A stretch of DNA of 64,000 nt from Brachyspira hyodysenteriae ATCC 27164 (GTDB lineage Bacteria; Spirochaetota; Brachyspiria; Brachyspirales; Brachyspiraceae): the NCBI RefSeq assembly GCF_001676785.2, contig NZ_CP015910.2, forward strand, positions 1,116,001 through 1,180,000, written 5' to 3'. The notes under the pieces are model-generated. The model ran no database searches. It was not told the DNA's origin and saw only the letters and a list, made by a program, of their open reading frames with translations. Shown piece after piece: positions 41,496 to 53,367 of the stretch (the first letter of the stretch is position 1; the number at the start of each line of letters is the position of its first letter). Both the position numbers and the translations under genes were made by a program.

Positions 41496-44339
41496 ATGAT
41501 TTTTAAAATGGATGATGATGTACTAAAAAGAAGGTTAAAATTTTATATGCCTGCACTTTTTGTTTTTGCAGGAATTGTTTCGGTAAGCATTTTTTCCATT
41601 TTATTGAAAACAGTTTATCAATTATCAAGTTCGTTAATAAGTTATTTGTATATATTTATTTTTATATTGATTGCTGTTTTCTGTGTGAGTATTTACTTTG
41701 ATTGTTTAAAATTAGAGAAAGGAAAATATGTTGCTATAGGCAAGATTTATGTAATAAAAGCGGGAATAGCAGTAGTTTTGGTAGCTATTTTTTCATACAG
41801 CCTTCATATATATCTTGGCAAAATTTCTATATTTGAAATGCTTAATATACGTCTTATAATGGTTATATTTTTGATTAGTGTTGCTATGTCTATTGCTTCT
41901 ACTAGTTTTAATATTTTAGTAAGACCATTATATAAAAAAACAGGTAAGAAAGAATATCATCTGCCTATAGCATATAATTTCATTCCAATTTCTATAGCTA
42001 CTGTAATATTTATTGTTACTTTCGTTAATGGTATGCATTACAGATCTGAAATAGTTTATGACAGACAGTATGACATTATTATAAAAAAAGGTTATGCTAA
42101 TGACTTCATTAATAGTATTTCAGATTCTTTAGAAAAATATGTTACAGTGTCTGATAATATAACAGGCTATATGAATATGATATATAGAAATAATTATACT
42201 TTGGATAATTATGTTGATATATTATCAAGATATTTAAGTACAAGATATACCAATGATAGTAATATTTCATCTGTAAGTGTATATTTTGGAGATTTAGAAA
42301 ATGTTAATATTATTAATATTAACACTAATGAAATTAATAAATTATCTATAGATTGGAAATATGATATTAGTGATTTAGTTGAGATTAAGACTAATTTAAG
42401 ACCTAATATAGGAGTTAATTATACTACTAGGTTGGCTACAGAAACTAATGCTTTAATAGATATAACATCAAATGCAGAAACTTTTTATATATATAATCCT
42501 ATTATTCTTAATAATAGACATGTAGGTTTTGTTAGTATAGAGGTAAGAAGTTCTGTATATTTAGATGTATTATCAAATGATATGTTTAAAAGTCAACTTA
42601 ATATATTTTTAACAGATGATACATATAATATTAAGGCTTCTAATAATCCTTCATTGATAGGTAATACTCAGAGAGATTTAGACAATACTGCCATTGGTTT
42701 GGAAATAAAAAAGAATCAGCATAACAATTACAGAAATAATATCACTGATGTAAATGTTATTTCTGTTGAAGATTCTAATGTATTAGCTATTAAATACTCT
42801 TTGTTTAATAATTTATATATTATAAACATATGGCAGCATAAAAGTGCTTATCAGAATCAATTATTTAGAAATACTATAATAAGATCTTCTGTAGCAATAT
42901 ATTTAGGTTTATTGGCATTTTTATTAGTTATATTGGCTTTAATACTTTCACTTAGAAAAACTTTGGTATTTGCTAAGAATGTATCAGAATCATTGAGTGA
43001 AGGAGAAGGTGATTTAACAATAAGACTTCCTGTTATTAGTAATAATGAATCAGGAGAGTTGGTTCACTCTTTTAATAAGTTTCTAGATAAGGTAAGAAAT
43101 ATTATAGTTAGTGTAAAAAACAATGCTTATACTTTAACAGGTAATATTCAGAATATGAGAGCTTCTATTAGTATAAGTATCAGTGATTTTAATACAATAT
43201 ATAAAGAGTTCGAAACAGAATTAGCTAATTCTAATAAGATAGCAGAGTCTTCAGCGAATGCTGCTAGAGTAAGCTTTATGCAGCGTACTAGATTTACAGC
43301 AGTTAATGAAACAGTTCAGTTATTATTAGATAATATTAATGATATTAATGATAAGATGAAGCAGCAATCAGAGGCTGTAGCTAAAACTAGTAGTTCAGTA
43401 CAGCAGATGATGGCTAATATAGTAACAGTAAGCCATGGAGCAACTAAAGCTAATGACTATGCTAAGATTTTATACACTGAAGCTCAAGATGGAAGTAATA
43501 TAGGTGAGTCAGTAGTAGGTTCTATACAAAGCATTAAAGAATATTCTAAACAGATAACTAACATTACACAGGTAATACATAATATAGCAGAACAGACAAA
43601 CCTTTTAGCAATGAATGCGGCAATAGAGGCAGCTCATGCAGGAGACCATGGCAGAGGTTTTACAGTAGTAGCAGATAAGATAAGAAAATTAGCAGAGGAT
43701 ACAGGAGAGAACTCTAAAATCATTAATGAGATAATTGAAGAGACAACACAGGCTATAGATCATACAGTATCTTTGGCTTTCAAGAGTTCAGAATCAATGG
43801 GAAAGATCTTGGAAGGATCTAATACTTTAGCAGATTTGATAGCTACAATTTCTGGTGCCAATGATGAATTAGATATAGGCAGAAGAGAAATCTTGATGAA
43901 TATCAGCAACTTAAATAATATTACAGAAGATGTACAGGAATTGTCATTGAAGCAGATGCAGATGAGTTCGGCTGTTAGTCAGAATATTTCTAGTGTAGAT
44001 AAGTTAGCGGAAGATGTAGTAAATGTAGTTAATACAGCAGAAACTGAAATGAAGGAATTAGTACATTCAATAGAAAATGTATCTAATTTATCAAGTACAA
44101 GCAGTAATAATATGGAGACAATGGATAAGAGAATTAAGGAATTGCAGTATATATTCCTTCAGTTATATAAATTAGTAATTTCTTTCAAAACAGAGAAGAC
44201 AGAGGAAGATATAGAAAAAGAGAAGAAAAAATTAACAGCAGCAGATAAAAAAAGAATTAAATTGCAGCGTAAGGCAGAGAAAGAAAAAAATAAGAGAAGA
44301 AAAGAGAAAATTGAAAGAGCTAAAAAAAGAAAGTGCTAA
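41496..44339 (+). CDS. Methyl-accepting chemotaxis protein, tandem copy 1
   Basis: 947 aa. The N-terminus has an unusual multi-helix membrane block of about six TM segments (residues 15-190), then a sensing region to about 455, another TM (about 467-487), HAMP and the signalling domain with tip [20 protein letters not shown]. The next gene is a close paralogue. The last 20 codons differ because a run of seven A (44284-44290) holds one extra base: copy 1 ends [16 protein letters not shown] instead of the KKESAKVKK tail. The ATG aligns exactly with that of copy 2. Confidence 0.93.
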
Positions 44340-44548
44340 AGTAAAAAAATAAAAGTATTATATTTTAGTATATTGAAGCATAATTTTTTTAGTAATTAAA
44401 TACAGTTTTTAACTAGTAAATTTTATTAAAAAATGGTATATTAATGAATAAAAGTAGTTTGTAAAATTAAGTAGGCTATTTTTCTAAATGTTGATATTAT
44501 TATGCCGAGAATTAAAATAATAAACCAGTATTTTATAGGTTGAATAAT

Positions 44549-47404
44549 ATGTTTTTTCAGGTAAATGAAGATAGATTAAAAAAAAGATTAAAGTTTTATA
44601 TACCAGTAGCATTTTTGATTATGGCTGCTATTTCAGTTGGTTCATATTCTATACTATTAAAAACAATTTATCAGCAGTCAAGTTCATTAAGAGGATACGT
44701 ATATATATTCATACTTTTTTTGGCTTTGTTTACAGCAGTAAGTATGTTTTTCGACTGTTTAAAAGTAGAGAAGGGAAAATCTATACCTTTAGGAAAAATA
44801 TATGTAGTTAAATCTGGTATAGCGGTAGTTTTAGTAGCTATTGTATCTTATACGGTTTATATATTAGATGGAAGTATAACATTATTTGAAATACTTAATA
44901 TACGTCTTATAATGGTTATATTCCTGATTAGTATAGCTATGGCCGTTTCATCTATATTCTTTAACATTTTAGTAAGACCATTATATAAAAAGACAGGCGG
45001 AAAAGAATATTATTTGCCTATGGTATATAATTTTTTACCTGTATCAATGGCAACTGTAATATTTATTGTTACTTTAATTAATGGTATGCATTACAGATCT
45101 GAAATAATTTATGACAGACAGTATGATATGATAGTGAAAAAAGGTTATGCTAATGACTTTATTAATAATATTTCAGATTCTTTAGCAAAATATATTGGTA
45201 TATCTGATAATATAGTAGCATATATGAATATACTATATAGAAATAATTATACTTTGAATAATTATGTTGATATATTATCAAGATATTTAAGTACAAGATA
45301 TGCCAATAATAATAATATATCATCTGTATCTATGTATCTATCAGATATTGAAAATGTTAATATTGATATTAATACTAATGGTATAGATAATTTATTAATA
45401 AATTGGAGATATAATGATATTAATAATTTAGCTGAGATTAAAACTAATTCAAGACCTAATATGGCAGGTAATTATACCACTAAATTATTAACAGAAACTA
45501 ATTCTTTAATAGATATAACACCAAATGCAGAAACTTTTTATATATATAATCCTATTATTCTTAATAATAGAAATGTAGGTTTTGTTAGTTTAGAGGTAAG
45601 AAGTTCTGTATATTTGGATGTATTATCAGATAATGTATTTAAGAGTCAGCTAAATATATTTTTAACAGATGATACATATAATATTAAGGCTTCCAATAAT
45701 CCTTCATTGATAGGTAATACCCAGAGAGATTTAGATAACACTGCTATTGGTATAGAAATAAAAAATAGTAAGTATAATAACCATAAGAATGGTATAATAG
45801 ATGTAAATGTTATTTCCATTGAAGATTCTAATGTATTAGCTATTAAATACTCTTTGTTTAATAATTTATATATTATAAATGTATGGGAGCATAGTAATGC
45901 TTATCAGAATCAATTATTTAGAAATACTATAATAAAGGCTTCTGTAGCAATATATTTAGGTTTATTGGCATTTTTATTAGTTATATTGGCTTTAATACTT
46001 TCACTTAGAAAAACTTTGGTATTTGCTAAGAACGTATCAGAATCATTAAGTGAAGGAGAAGGTGATTTAACAATCAGACTTCCTGTTATTAGTAATAATG
46101 AATCAGGAGAGTTGGTTCACTCTTTTAATAAGTTTCTAGATAAGGTAAGAAATATTATAGTTAGTGTAAAAAACAATGCTTATACTTTAACAGGTAATAT
46201 TCAAAATATGAGAGCCTCTATTAGTATAAGTATTAGTGATTTTAATACAATTTATAAAGAATTCGAAACAGAGCTTATTAATTCTAATAAAATAGCAGAG
46301 TCTTCAGCGAATGCTGCTAGAGTAAGCTTTATGCAGCGTACTAGATTTACAGCAGTTAATGAAACAGTTCAGTTATTATTAGAAAATATTAATGATATTA
46401 ATGATAAGATGAAGCAGCAATCAGAGGCTGTAGCTAAAACTAGTAGTTCAGTACAGCAGATGATGGCTAATATAGTAACAGTAAGCCATGGAGCAACTAA
46501 AGCTAATGACTATGCTAAGATTTTATACACTGAAGCTCAAGATGGAAGTAATATAGGTGAGTCAGTAGTAGATTCTATACAAAGCATTAAAGAATATTCT
46601 AAACAGATAACTAACATTACACAGGTAATACATAATATAGCAGAACAGACAAACCTTTTAGCAATGAATGCGGCAATAGAGGCAGCTCATGCCGGAGAAC
46701 ATGGTAGGGGTTTTACAGTAGTAGCAGATAAGATAAGAAAATTAGCAGAGGATACAGGAGAGAACTCTAAGATCATTAATGAGATAATTGAAGAGACAAC
46801 ACAGGCTATAGATCATACAGTATCTTTGGCTTTCAAGAGTTCAGAATCAATGGAGAAGATCTTGGAAGGTTCCAATACTTTAGCAGATTTGATAGCTACA
46901 ATTTCTGGTGCTAATGATGAATTAGATATAGGCAGAAGAGAAATCTTGATGAATATCAGCAACTTAAATAATATTACAGAAGATGTACAGGAATTGTCAT
47001 TGAAGCAGATGCAGATGAGTTCGGCTGTTAGTCAGAATATTTCTAGTGTAGATAAGTTAGCGGAAGATGTAGTAAATGTAGTTAATACAGCAGAAACTGA
47101 AATGAAGGAATTAGTACATTCAATAGAAAATGTGGCTAATTTATCAAGTACAAGCAGCCATAATATGGAGACAATGGATAAGAGAATTAAGGAATTGCAG
47201 TATATATTCCTTCAGTTATATAAATTAGTAATTTCTTTCAAAACAGAGAAGACAGAGGAAGATATAGAAAAAGAGAAGAAAAAAACAATAGCTGTAGATA
47301 AGAAAAGAATGAAATTGGAACGTAAGGCAGAGAAAGAAAGAATAAGAGAAGAAAAGAAAAGATTGAAAGAGTTAAAAAAAGAAAGTGCTAAAGTAAAAAA
47401 ATAA
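44549..47404 (+). CDS. Methyl-accepting chemotaxis protein, tandem copy 2
   Basis: 951 aa from ATG 44549 ([16 protein letters not shown]), which aligns with the start of copy 1; TTG at 44540 has no room for a ribosome binding site. Same architecture: about six N-terminal TMs, sensing region, TM, HAMP, signalling tip [20 protein letters not shown] and a lysine-rich tail ending KKESAKVKK. From about 45900 to 47260 the DNA is almost identical to 42840-44200, while the N-terminal third is clearly more divergent. The two may sense different ligands through one shared output. The OmpA-family gene begins 20 bp after the stop. Confidence 0.93.
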
Positions 47405-48724: not shown

Positions 48725-49070
48725 TTATAAACTAAACTTTTAGTATATACTAAAAATTTTTAACTTTGTCAATTTTTGTTATTCTTTTTACCGCCGCACG
48801 CCACAGGCGGACAGCGTCAAAGAACCATACGAAGTACGCCTACGGCGAAAGTGCAAGTATAAAATTAGTACTAAATAATACTAATTTTGTCTTACATGTA
48901 AGATAAAATATTAAATTTAAGTTAAAATATAGTCTTTTTGCTTCTTTGTGGCAATACAACAGGCACTTCCTTCAGTCGCAAAAGAAGTGGGGTGCGGGGC
49001 AAAGCCCTGCAAATATTTTAAATTTAAAAAATTTATTTTTGACAAAATATAGTTGTTTAGGTATATATAA
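48725..49070 (+). repeat. Structured intergenic repeat element, copy B (upstream of obg)
   Basis: No gene lies between the OmpA-family gene and obg. The element shares with copy A the left segment AGTATATACTAAAAATTTTT (48742-48761) plus TTTGTCAA, and an identical 33-bp right end (49035-49067) with TTGACA-17-TATATA. Between them are a 10-bp hairpin (48861-48870 with 48879-48888), a 14-bp palindrome TCTTACATGTAAGA (48890-48903), a CTTCTTT/AAAGAAG stem and hairpin GCGGGGC-AAA-GCCCTGC (48994-49010). The left palindrome is decayed; only its minus-strand promoter half survives. Confidence 0.7.
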
Positions 49071-49170: not shown

Positions 49171-51213
49171 ATGGATCAATTTATAGATGTAGTAAGTTTT
49201 GAGATAGAAGCAGGACATGGAGGAGCTGGAAGCGTAAGTTTCAGAAGAGAAGCTCATGTACCTATGGGAGGACCTGATGGAGGAAATGGCGGAGACGGCG
49301 GAGATGTTATAGTTAGAGTGGATGCAAGAATAAATAGTTTCGGTAAGATAAAAAGCAGAAAAAGATTCAGAGCGAGAGACGGAGAACCTGGAAGAGCTAG
49401 ATTAAGCGATGGTAAAAGGGGAGATGATGTTGTTATAAGAGTTCCTATTGGTACTGTTGTTTATGATGAAGATACAAATAATATATTGGCCGATTTACTT
49501 GAAGACGGACAAAGATATACTGTTGCTAGAGGCGGAAAAGGCGGAAAAGGAAATAAATTCTACGCTACAGCTACAAATCAGGCACCGGATTATGCACAGC
49601 ATGGTTTAGATGGTGAGAAATTAAATATAAGATTAGAAGTTAAACTTATTGCTGATATTGGACTTGTAGGAATGCCTAATGCCGGTAAATCAAGTTTGCT
49701 TGCAAGACTTACAAGAGCTAATCCAAAAATTGCATCATATCCATTTACTACACTTACTCCAAATTTGGGAGTTTGTTATTTAGATTATGAGAGAAGTTTT
49801 GTTATTGCCGATATTCCGGGAATCATAGAAGGTGCCAGCGAAGGTGCAGGACTTGGACTTACTTTCTTAAGACATATAGAAAGAACAGGTGCTTTATGTT
49901 TTGTTATAGATTTAACCGATGAAGATGTGGCCGATACTTATAAAAAACTTAGAAATGAATTGAAGCAGTATAGTAAAGAATTAATAAAGAAAAAGTCTAT
50001 TATCGTACTAAATAAAACTGATATGCTTGAAAAAGATGAGATAAAAGAAAAAGTAAAAGCTATAGAAAAAGCAGTAAAAAAAGAATATAAAAATAATAAA
50101 GAAACTCATTATGAAGAGCCTGAAATATTCGCTTTATCCGTATTTAGTTTAGACGGTGAACTTCTTGATAAAGTAACAAATGCATTTTATAAAGCAAATG
50201 AAGAAAGATATGATAATACTAAAAAAGAAACTAAAGAACCTTTACTTCTTAATCAGAATAAATCTAAATCAAAGTTAAAAACAAAAAGAGTATTCGGGCC
50301 TGTAGTTTCAAAAAGGTTGGGTAATTCTTTGGGAATAGATGTTATACCTCATAAAACTTGCAGTTATAATTGCATATACTGTCAATTAGGTTCTGAGGAA
50401 AATACTAAAACTAATCTTGCTAATTATTATTCTGTTGATGAAATAATATATGAACTAAAAGAGGCTTTGCTTAATAATAAAAATATTGATTATATAACAT
50501 TTGCAGGTTCAGGGGAGCCTACCTTATATAAGGATTTGAAAAAACTTATTTATGAAATAAAGCAGATAACTGATATTCCTGTATGCATTATAACAAATGG
50601 TTCTTTGCTTTATAAACAGGAAATGCGTTCTGATTTGCTTATTGCCGATTTGGTTATACCTTCTCTTGATGCTGGTAATATGGATACATTTAAACTTATA
50701 GATCAGCCTAATAAAGAAATTGATTTTGATAAAATGGTTAATGGACTTATAGAGTTTAGGAGAGTTTTTAAAGGCGAGTATTGGCTTGAGGTATTTTTAC
50801 TTAAAGATATAAATGACAGTAAAGAAGAGCTTGATGATATAATAAAAATAGTAAATAAAATAAAACCTGATAGAGTACAGCTTGTTACAGCTACAAGAAG
50901 AACTTCAAATGAAAAGGCTAAGGCATTGAATGATGAAGAAATGGAAAAGGCAAAGAAATATTTTGAAGCAAACTGCAGTATTGAAATAGATGTGCCAAGT
51001 GTATCCGATAAGGCAAAAGGAAATACCAAAAAAATAACAGAAGAAGATATAATAAATTTTTTAATAAGACAGCCTGATACAGTTCATATGATAGCTATTA
51101 GTTTCAATGAAGATGAAAGCAGGGTAAGTGAATTATTAAAAAAATTAGTTGAAAGCGGAAAGGTGAGAGAAGAAATAGTTAATGGCGTATTGTCTTATGC
51201 AGTTAATATTTGA
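49171..51213 (+). CDS. obg: Obg GTPase fused to a radical SAM (COG0731-like) domain
   Basis: 680 aa in one uninterrupted frame. Residues 1-345 are a normal Obg/CgtA: glycine-rich OBG domain (GGPDGGNGGDGGDV), P-loop GMPNAGKS (167-174), DIPG (214-217) and NKTD (281-284). Residues 346-372 are a charged linker. Residues 373-600 are a radical SAM domain with FGPVVSKRLGNSLGIDVIP and cluster motif C397-x3-C401-x2-C404 (KTCSYNCIYCQLG), then FAGSGEPTLY. The last 70 residues resemble a winged helix (EEDIINFLIRQPDTVHMIA). Obg acts in 50S assembly and (p)ppGpp signalling; COG0731 relatives include the TYW1-like tRNA-modifying group. The usual Obg C-terminal domain is replaced. Confidence 0.9.
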   Translation: MDQFIDVVSFEIEAGHGGAGSVSFRREAHVPMGGPDGGNGGDGGDVIVRVDARINSFGKIKSRKRFRARDGEPGRARLSDGKRGDDVVIRVPIGTVVYDEDTNNILADLLEDGQRYTVARGGKGGKGNKFYATATNQAPDYAQHGLDGEKLNIRLEVKLIADIGLVGMPNAGKSSLLARLTRANPKIASYPFTTLTPNLGVCYLDYERSFVIADIPGIIEGASEGAGLGLTFLRHIERTGALCFVIDLTDEDVADTYKKLRNELKQYSKELIKKKSIIVLNKTDMLEKDEIKEKVKAIEKAVKKEYKNNKETHYEEPEIFALSVFSLDGELLDKVTNAFYKANEERYDNTKKETKEPLLLNQNKSKSKLKTKRVFGPVVSKRLGNSLGIDVIPHKTCSYNCIYCQLGSEENTKTNLANYYSVDEIIYELKEALLNNKNIDYITFAGSGEPTLYKDLKKLIYEIKQITDIPVCIITNGSLLYKQEMRSDLLIADLVIPSLDAGNMDTFKLIDQPNKEIDFDKMVNGLIEFRRVFKGEYWLEVFLLKDINDSKEELDDIIKIVNKIKPDRVQLVTATRRTSNEKAKALNDEEMEKAKKYFEANCSIEIDVPSVSDKAKGNTKKITEEDIINFLIRQPDTVHMIAISFNEDESRVSELLKKLVESGKVREEIVNGVLSYAVNI

Positions 51214-51328: not shown

Positions 51329-52075
51329 ATGAGAACCGTATTTATTATAATTTTTATAAGTATATGCTGCAATATTATATATTCATTTACCCAAAAAGAA
51401 AATGATTTAATTATGGCAGCTGAAAAGTCCGATATTATGTCAATTAGGAATATACTCAATAGCAAAGATGTTAATATTAATGTTCAGGACAGATACGGTG
51501 TTACTCCTTTGATGCATGCGGTATTCAATAAAGATATTTATATATTAGAATTATTATTAAAAAACAATGCAAATCCTAATATGCAAAATGATAGCGGTAA
51601 AACAGCTTTAATATATGCATGCAATACTTGTGATTTTGATATGATACAAATGCTTATATGGTATAAAGCTGATGTTAATCTCAGTGATAATTATAAATCT
51701 ACAGCTTTAATGTACGCTTCAAGCAGAGATACTAATATTATAAAATTACTTGCTGAATCAGGCGCTGATATTAATGCTCAGAATTTAGATGGTAAAACAG
51801 CTTTAATGTATAATATTTTAAATAAGGCCGATGCTGAAACTATTAAAACTTTTATTAGTTTAGGTGCGGATATTAATATTCAAGATATTCATGGCTATAG
51901 TGCTTTGATGTATGCTGCCATATTAGATTATAGAGAATTTGTTGAAATATTAATAGAAAATGGAGCTGATGTAAATAAAAGAAATAATTATAATAAAACA
52001 GCTTTAACTATGTCTGAAGAAAATAAAAATTATAAAATGGCTGAGATTTTAATTAAATACGGTGCAGTAAGATAA
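51329..52075 (+). CDS. Exported ankyrin-repeat protein
   Basis: 248 aa. N-terminal signal peptide (MRTVFIIIFISICCNIIYSF), then about six ankyrin repeats of 33 residues (pattern DxxGxTALMYA...LLxxGADxN). Ankyrin repeats bind other proteins; export suggests a periplasmic, surface or secreted role. Convergent with another exported ankyrin gene, 11 bp apart. Confidence 0.87.
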   Translation: MRTVFIIIFISICCNIIYSFTQKENDLIMAAEKSDIMSIRNILNSKDVNINVQDRYGVTPLMHAVFNKDIYILELLLKNNANPNMQNDSGKTALIYACNTCDFDMIQMLIWYKADVNLSDNYKSTALMYASSRDTNIIKLLAESGADINAQNLDGKTALMYNILNKADAETIKTFISLGADINIQDIHGYSALMYAAILDYREFVEILIENGADVNKRNNYNKTALTMSEENKNYKMAEILIKYGAVR

Positions 52076-52086
52076 TTAATTATTTT

Positions 52087-53367
52087 TTAATTTATAGCTT
52101 CAAGTCCAAGTAATTTTCTTATTTCTTTATTATTATTTTTTTTAACTAATTCTATTGCTTTACTGTCTACTGTAGCATTGTTTCTTATAAGTTTTCTGCA
52201 CATTTCTAAATTATTGTTTTCTACAGCTATAGCTAATGGACTATATCCTCTTTTATCTTTTACATCTACATTAGCACCATTTAATAATAAATTATCAGTT
52301 ATAGACATATTATTATTTTTTACTGCTGTATGTATAGGAGCGTATCCGTTATACATATTATTTAATTCAGATTTGGCATTTATTAAAATATTGGATATTT
52401 CAGTATCATTATTTGAAACTGCTATATTTAATGCTAATTGATTTTTATCATTCAATATGTTTACATTTGCATTATATTTTATTAAAGCATTTATAACTTC
52501 TATATATTCATTTTTTGATTTATGAGCATTCATTACAGCTAAATGCAAGGCAGTATTTCCATTTTTATCTTTTATATTTGGATTTGCATTTTTTGATAAA
52601 AGCAAATTGACACTTTCAAGCAATTTATTAGAATTATTTTCTATAACATAATGCAATGATGTTTTGAAATTTGCATTTGTGTTATCAATATTAGCACCTA
52701 ATTTTATAAGTTCGCTTGCTGCCTCTACAGAACCATGTCCAACAGCATAATGAAGCATGGTATTAGTATCTTTAGTATCAACATCTATTCCTAAATTCTT
52801 TACTAAGTAATTTATATTTTCTGTATTATTTCCAATACTTGCTGATTTTATTAAAGATATAACATCTTCGCTATTCATAAGCAGATATATATTTTTATTA
52901 AGATAAAGTTCTAATATTTGAGGATTAGCATATTCTGAAGCTAAAAACTCACTTCTTGGTTTTTCTTTCATTTGGAAATTAATATTAGCTCCGGAATCTA
53001 TTAATAATTTAACACTTTCAAAATTTTTGTTTATAGTTGCAATATCCATAGCCGAATAGTATGAACCGTCTATATATTTATTATTATTTGTTATTTTAGT
53101 ATTATTATCCAAAAGAATATTTAAATCAGTATACGGAGAATTTTTAAGTACATTTATAGAAACTGTTTGATTATTTTCAGCAGCTATATGTATTAGTGAG
53201 TATCCTCTTTCATCTTTAATATTAGGGCTTATATTTTGCGATAATAGAGTTTGTATAGTTCTGATATCTCCTGTTTTTACTGCATTAATCATTTTATTTT
53301 CATTTTCTGTTAATGCATACAGACTAATAATATTTATGAATAATGTTATTATTATAATTTTTTTCAT
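52087..53367 (-). CDS. Exported ankyrin-repeat protein, longer
   Basis: 426 aa. Signal peptide of about 20 residues (MKKIIIITLFINIISLYAL), then about ten ankyrin repeats; clear ones are DERGYSLIHIAAENNQTVSI, DKNGNTALHLAVMNAHKS and DKRGYSPLAIAVENNNLEMC. The repeat after residue 95 is irregular with a long loop. Same class as the convergent neighbour but with different repeat sequence, so not a recent duplicate. Confidence 0.87.
   Translation of the reverse strand: MKKIIIITLFINIISLYALTENENKMINAVKTGDIRTIQTLLSQNISPNIKDERGYSLIHIAAENNQTVSINVLKNSPYTDLNILLDNNTKITNNNKYIDGSYYSAMDIATINKNFESVKLLIDSGANINFQMKEKPRSEFLASEYANPQILELYLNKNIYLLMNSEDVISLIKSASIGNNTENINYLVKNLGIDVDTKDTNTMLHYAVGHGSVEAASELIKLGANIDNTNANFKTSLHYVIENNSNKLLESVNLLLSKNANPNIKDKNGNTALHLAVMNAHKSKNEYIEVINALIKYNANVNILNDKNQLALNIAVSNNDTEISNILINAKSELNNMYNGYAPIHTAVKNNNMSITDNLLLNGANVDVKDKRGYSPLAIAVENNNLEMCRKLIRNNATVDSKAIELVKKNNNKEIRKLLGLEAIN

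Follow-up and report, generated by a model that had tools for sequence, protein, structure and literature searches.

A conserved in-frame fusion of the GTPase Obg with a radical SAM/winged-helix protein in Brachyspira and two other genera

In the window, that is, the 64,000-nucleotide stretch of the Brachyspira hyodysenteriae ATCC 27164 genome that was analysed (contig NZ_CP015910.2, positions 1,116,001 to 1,180,000), a single ATG-started frame of 680 amino acids without internal stop raises the question of whether an Obg GTPase has been joined to a radical SAM enzyme and, if so, what the enzyme does there. An earlier note, made from the letters alone, had described an in-frame fusion of a complete Obg with a radical SAM domain carrying a CX3CX2C motif and with a winged-helix-like tail. 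Our analysis bore this out, with Obg at residues 1-345, a linker at 346-371 and the radical SAM/winged-helix part at 372-680; the three cysteines lie at exactly the residues claimed (C397, C401 and C404), and the tail stands as a prediction, its elements being placed at residues 624-678 by predicted secondary structure.

Layout and conservation of the fusion gene

The features of the gene, all on the plus strand, are:

49171..51213, +, fusion gene of obg and a radical SAM protein, 680 amino acids; one open frame, the same in 28 of 29 family genomes
49171..49647, +, glycine-rich N-terminal domain of Obg, residues 1-159; Pfam GTP1_OBG at 5-159, E 5e-55
49648..50205, +, GTPase domain of Obg, residues 160-345; Pfam MMR_HSR1 at 163-282, G motifs at 167, 190, 214, 281 and 323
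50206..50283, +, lysine-rich linker, residues 346-371, variable in length and sequence; pLDDT below 50 at 346-369, alignment and start-codon checks
50284..50970, +, radical SAM domain, residues 372-600; Pfam Radical_SAM, alignments A1 and A2, model with mean pLDDT 92.3
Motifs within the radical SAM domain: FGPVVSKRLGNSLGID at residues 375-390, cysteines C397/C401/C404, and GSGEPT at 446-451
50971..51210, +, tail, predicted winged helix, residues 601-680 (elements at 624-678); predicted secondary structure, HTH-type Pfam matches in some relatives

The N-terminal domain matched the whole Pfam GTP1_OBG model (1-155), the GTPase motifs were intact at all five positions, and the Obg half passed the NCBIfam model Obg_CgtA (TIGR02729) with 414.3 bits against a cut-off of 280.25; one Obg copy was detected in the genome. 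Like Obg/CgtA of E. coli (ObgE) and B. subtilis (Obg), the protein has a full glycine-rich N domain and a G domain, followed by a C-terminal module carried on a linker, whereas in the fusion that module consists of an entire radical SAM/winged-helix protein, about 310 amino acids long. An Obg with such a complete module is a new Obg architecture, built from a known Obg and a known superfamily. In the open-access literature, we found no report of an Obg with an enzyme as its C-terminal module, and the accessible portions of PMC12548448, PMC3223725 and PMC6925170 hold nothing on a link between Obg and a radical SAM protein.

A match to the fusion was obtained in all 29 genomes of the family, which spans Brachyspira and two other genera, with identity down to 56%. 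Both halves are full length in one frame in 26 of them; in G008 they share one frame, which a contig end truncates at residue 537, in G009 the single frame is shorter and ends at residue 608, and G006, the only family genome not spanning the join, is split by contig ends. The earlier note had named a stop or frameshift near residues 346-372 as the sign of two separate proteins, and none was seen in any of the 28 genomes whose sequence covers the region. The comparison across Brachyspira and other spirochaetes that it proposed showed the C-terminal radical SAM half joined to Obg in 28 of the 29 family genomes and free in the loci elsewhere that could be judged. An artefact of assembly or sequencing has virtually no probability and is ruled out by the identical single-frame join, which recurs across three genera in 28 of the 29 genomes; three of these assemblies (G007, G016 and G019) consist of one contig. 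The genes around the fusion vary between genera and the join is constant. By these sequence comparisons, the join of Obg to the radical SAM protein is real, conserved and selected, far beyond chance.

The radical SAM half and its free relatives

Pfam Radical_SAM matched residues 392-554 (E 8e-17, 62.3 bits against a cut-off of 29.5), and the three motif cysteines were invariant across 75 aligned members. This half is the full-length counterpart of a free protein of about 310 amino acids, of a kind that we take to be 'COG0731-like'. Its identity to nine free spirochaete relatives is 34-43% over the whole length (alignment A1), and full-length homologues outside the family reach 34-49%; all share the motifs FGPVxS(R/K)RLGxSLG (FGPVPSRRLGxSLG), CX3CX2C and GSGEPT as well as the winged-helix tail, but the homologues outside the family stand alone in the loci that could be judged. 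Where the other 74 sequences show conservation of 90% or more, at 41 positions, the window copy agrees at 40. The exception, P208 in domain numbering, is R in the g1 and g2 copies checked, E in G009, and P still in g3.

The predicted model of the radical SAM half was confident (mean pLDDT 92.3, pTM 0.90) and gave a radical SAM barrel followed by the helix-helix-helix-strand-strand order of a winged helix. On the tail of the window protein all HTH models stayed below the Pfam cut-offs, and the tails of some relatives matched the TrmB, HTH_20, MarR_2 and DprA_WH models with E down to about 1e-5. In the full-length model (pTM 0.51) no defined packing between the halves was predicted; the Obg half was also of low confidence at 182-209 and 220-232.

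A profile search of the genome for the free copy that the earlier note had asked about returned no second family member, the fusion scoring 414 bits and the next matches 40 and 31 bits. A distant radical SAM match lies on the 32.6-kb second contig, presumably a plasmid (G000:C2:27028-27570, L003); in the abstract of PMC4267127, plasmid genes including a radical SAM protein are tied to virulence. At E <=1e-20, a member of the radical SAM family was present in 124 of 296 spirochaete genomes, 29 of the family and 95 others. It is unfused in 94 of these 95, and G082 cannot be judged because its match begins at a contig end. The longest frame among the 95, with 534 amino acids (G076), was rejected as an Obg fusion, its radical SAM part being N-terminal, and the remaining frames, of at most 412 amino acids, are too short for both halves. 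A 900-amino-acid frame in G031 (243 in a second search) was likewise rejected, being a separate 240-amino-acid ORF behind the stop of a 653-amino-acid ORF. Among the Obg matches listed outside the family, 31 of 32 genomes (the 32nd being G042) had open frames of 321-404 amino acids.

The relatives from other genomes numbered at least 584, of which the best 80 were retained, and the two Brachyspira loci among these 80 were both fused; in 5 of the 80 loci (L076, L085, L086, L111 and L114) the radical SAM ORF was not called despite the locus-search match. With the Obg half as query, no Obg turned up near the free relatives in any of 92 non-Brachyspira loci (78 further and 14 spirochaete), the only match there being a weak one (E 8e-6) to a 574-amino-acid protein. 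In three spirochaete genomes (L042, L043 and L044) a short radical SAM form of about 240 amino acids adjoins a methionine-aminopeptidase-like gene (Pfam on one). In a quick tree of 75 sequences, for which, as for alignment A2, 58 of the best 80 relatives had been hand-picked without a fixed rule, both Brachyspira loci and 20 others of the 80 being left out, the eight fused copies formed one clade (SH-aLRT 99), which is consistent with a single fusion event. The placement of its sister had weak support, and none of the nine free spirochaete copies grouped with the clade.

The earlier note had also placed this half with enzymes of the tRNA- or rRNA-modification type, which may hold, although neither family scores nor fold neighbours single out an RNA enzyme. 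The curated cut-offs were all missed, mostly widely: 40.6 against 317.95 bits for TYW1 (TIGR03972), 19.5 against 290 for RlmN (TIGR00048), 27.7 against 530 for Cfr (NF000424), 58.5 against 180 for prokaryotic viperin (NF038283) and 54.2 against 325.25 for MoaA (TIGR02668), so that membership of these five families was rejected. The tRNA wybutosine enzyme TYW1 shares the radical SAM fold (Z 20.0, 2yx0) but requires a second, N-terminal cysteine triad for a second cluster, and the fusion has no extra conserved cysteines that could hold one: none was found ahead of the motif within the radical SAM part of the window copy, and only the three motif cysteines are common to this half of all seven fused copies compared. 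The solved TYW1-type proteins 2z2u, 6djt and 2yx0 were distant matches only. RlmN and Cfr, which methylate 23S rRNA at A2503, share the fold as well (RlmN Z 19.2), but the genome has its own separate RlmN above the cut-off, and a replacement of RlmN by the fusion was therefore discarded. The fold neighbours of the model, namely PFL-AE (Z 20.4), TYW1 (20.0), NifB (19.7) and RlmN (19.2), were tied across peptide-, tRNA-, metal-cluster- and rRNA-acting enzymes in a VIA-align list from which the absence of a family was not counted as exclusion. Substrates of all four kinds are thus possible, because no curated cut-off was reached and the fold matches are tied.

The neighbours of the free relatives were clustered over 100 loci, two of them from Brachyspira, and the counts, taken without a background rate, are descriptive: MinD/ferredoxin ATPases 21, sensor-kinase-like proteins 17 (by eye), MBL hydrolases 14, DUF5320 12, ARMT1-like 11 and TrmO 9. 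Ten proteins were scanned for these names, one per named group except the kinases, and the others were named by eye. Loci L045, L060, L069, L095 and L100 exemplify the recurring MinD/ferredoxin, MBL, DUF5320, ARMT1-like and TrmO neighbours, many in anaerobes. An RNase E/G-type gene lies downstream in 4 of the 100 loci and is adjacent in 2 (Pfam on one of the four); it and the tRNA enzyme TrmO were the RNA-related neighbours recognised in the clusters. Free relatives thus adjoin Fe-S/metal genes more than ribosome genes. In the B. hyodysenteriae genome itself TrmO was not found, and a MinD-ferredoxin protein gave no full-length match. In the spirochaete G060, the free relative has, at a distance of about 3.4 kb, a gene that by eye resembles the one for the 16S rRNA methyltransferase KsgA. 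A different radical SAM protein, TIGR03960, also occurs in many of the genomes with a family member and probably lies in the rplU-rpmA-obg operon of Clostridia; it was given no weight because a shared anaerobic lifestyle could account for the co-presence. At E 1e-40 it was absent from G009 and also from the less complete G008 and G020.

Selection and possible roles of the fusion

Within the genus, median dN/dS was 0.034 for the Obg N domain, 0.037 for the G domain, 0.110 for the linker, 0.062 for the radical SAM domain and 0.116 for the tail (218-252 pairs with dS >0.15, from the genus without G008 and G009). Judged by these ratios, both halves are under purifying selection, and the linker and tail are under a looser one. 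The fused copies checked in other genera keep 37/42, 39/42 and 41/42 of the conserved family positions. In G009, a 2.0-Mb Brachyspira genome (L030, G009:C2:104935-106749), the fusion is kept and the winged helix lost, together with 20 of 45 conserved family positions, two of which lie within the lost tail; the cluster cysteines and GEPT are kept. A neutral simulation with about 25% of bases changed on the G009 side gave no stop-free copy in 300 runs, which is why the half is probably still maintained there as a protein, perhaps with altered function; the simulation was simple, and a recent release from selection is compatible with its outcome. The G009 pattern implies that Obg can persist after the ancestral activity has been altered or lost.

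Several precedents bear on what such a join could do. The passages available of PMC4028186 place E. coli ObgE in the peptidyl-transferase centre, near the stalk base and the sarcin-ricin loop, with a CTD that lacks density and is dispensable for 50S binding; they describe Obg as a ppGpp-responsive factor and Obg CTDs as flexible modules of diverse kinds, for which contacts with species-specific partners have been suggested. In human mitochondria, late intermediates of the large subunit carry the Obg protein GTPBP5 together with the rRNA methyltransferase MRM2, and methylation is partly reduced when GTPBP5 is absent, according to a study cited in the sections available of PMC7797037 and PMC8209036. 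What is alike is that late large-subunit assembly involves an Obg GTPase together with an enzyme that modifies rRNA; however, GTPBP5 and MRM2 are separate proteins, and MRM2 is an ordinary methyltransferase rather than a radical SAM enzyme.

The best reading, which we hold tentatively, is that the Obg body tethers a radical SAM enzyme to maturing 50S subunits. The protein would be an ordinary Obg with a complete radical SAM/winged-helix enzyme as its species-specific C-terminal module, and its ribosome-binding body would bring the enzyme to the subunits. On a linker of about 25 residues, the enzyme could modify rRNA, a ribosomal protein or a bound tRNA close by for as long as Obg holds GTP or ppGpp, and the winged helix may aid binding of the RNA or protein substrate. 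The site and the extent of one modification would thereby depend on a late step of 50S assembly. A tethered enzyme fits the model because the linker has pLDDT below 50, although parts of the Obg half are of low confidence as well. The conserved join, selection on both halves, the lack of a detected second copy in the genome, the improbability of separate translation (see below), the Obg precedents and, as weak context, the RNase E/G-type neighbour of some relatives support the ribosome reading by sequence and by analogy; against it stand neighbours that are not ribosome-assembly genes, the lack of an Obg near free relatives, the tied folds, the lack of packing, the losses in G009 and the ATG of L031. 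That RNA modification is coupled to 50S maturation as a 'checkpoint', as the earlier note had suggested, is something we infer by analogy, and it finds its best support in the Obg CTD precedent and the GTPBP5-MRM2 association (PMC4028186, PMC7797037 and PMC8209036, each available in part).

Somewhat less probable, and on balance unlikely, is that Obg acts as a passive carrier, the fusion giving shared expression or stability only while the enzyme keeps an ancestral, unrelated job, for example on a metal cofactor or a metabolic protein. The Fe-S/metal-type and assorted metabolic genes around the free relatives point this way, as do the predicted disorder of the linker and the wide occurrence of relatives without Obg. 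Yet the join outlasted divergence to 56% identity and a change of gene order, and a passive join might have split somewhere; moreover, the two recurrent neighbours that were tested, TrmO and the full-length MinD-ferredoxin protein, are both missing here.

We regard it as distinctly unlikely that the half serves as a sensor or regulator, its oxygen-labile cluster and SAM binding reporting the redox or SAM state so as to tune Obg and slow 50S assembly and growth under stress. Such a role would suit the diverse CTDs of a ppGpp-responsive factor (PMC4028186, in part) and G009, which keeps the Fe-S cysteines and loses many other family positions, but the high retention of family positions in the copies of the other genera argues for catalysis and not for binding alone, and the model shows no confident packing of the halves.

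The tethered-enzyme reading can be extended to an enzyme that modifies the large subunit, gated by the GTPase cycle of its carrier, with free bacterial and archaeal relatives acting likewise on the ribosome or translation. We consider this extension doubtful; if true, this one fusion would reveal the function of widespread uncharacterised free relatives. In any case, the fusion offers a way into a radical SAM family that is uncharacterised and occurs in many phyla, and it equips a genus with a pig pathogen among its species with an unusual Obg. A published suggestion is that Obg CTDs connect the ribosome to pathways particular to a species, and here the pathway has an assayable catalytic signature.

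The linker and the surroundings of the gene

The linker of the window copy shows 14% and 16% identity to those of the two other genera compared, varies in length and is predicted to be disordered in the full-length model (pLDDT <50 at 346-369). A disordered, faster-evolving stretch is what a cleavage site could look like, and in six of the 28 copies an ATG lies ahead of the cysteine motif, five times within an FGPV-M-SKRLG motif and once (L031, genus g2) at the start of the module, exactly where the free proteins begin. Both observations would fit halves that are joined in the gene but cleaved or separately translated in the cell, in which case there would be no functional fusion. This possibility is nonetheless very improbable. 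No linker motif conserved across genera was seen in the alignment by eye, the linker of the window copy contains no in-frame ATG, and no ribosome-binding-site-like stretch lies ahead of the in-frame ATG of L031. The commonest candidate start, a TTG at 387, would delete the conserved FGPVxSKRLG motif if used. Over the 60 codons that lead up to the first cysteine, no start codon common to all 28 copies was found, and four of them lack any ATG, GTG or TTG; separate translation of the radical SAM half is, from these codons, unlikely.

A GC-rich interspersed element lies upstream of the gene at 48985-49007 and has 18 copies in the genome at <=2 mismatches (reversed control, 0). Downstream, at 51329-53367, two ankyrin-repeat-like genes lie on opposite strands (translations read by eye). 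Further upstream, at 41496-47404, lies a tandem pair of chemotaxis-receptor-like genes. Their identity is 65-94% in the first 1400 aligned bases and rises to 95-99.5% in the following 1400, a pattern that suggests gene conversion.
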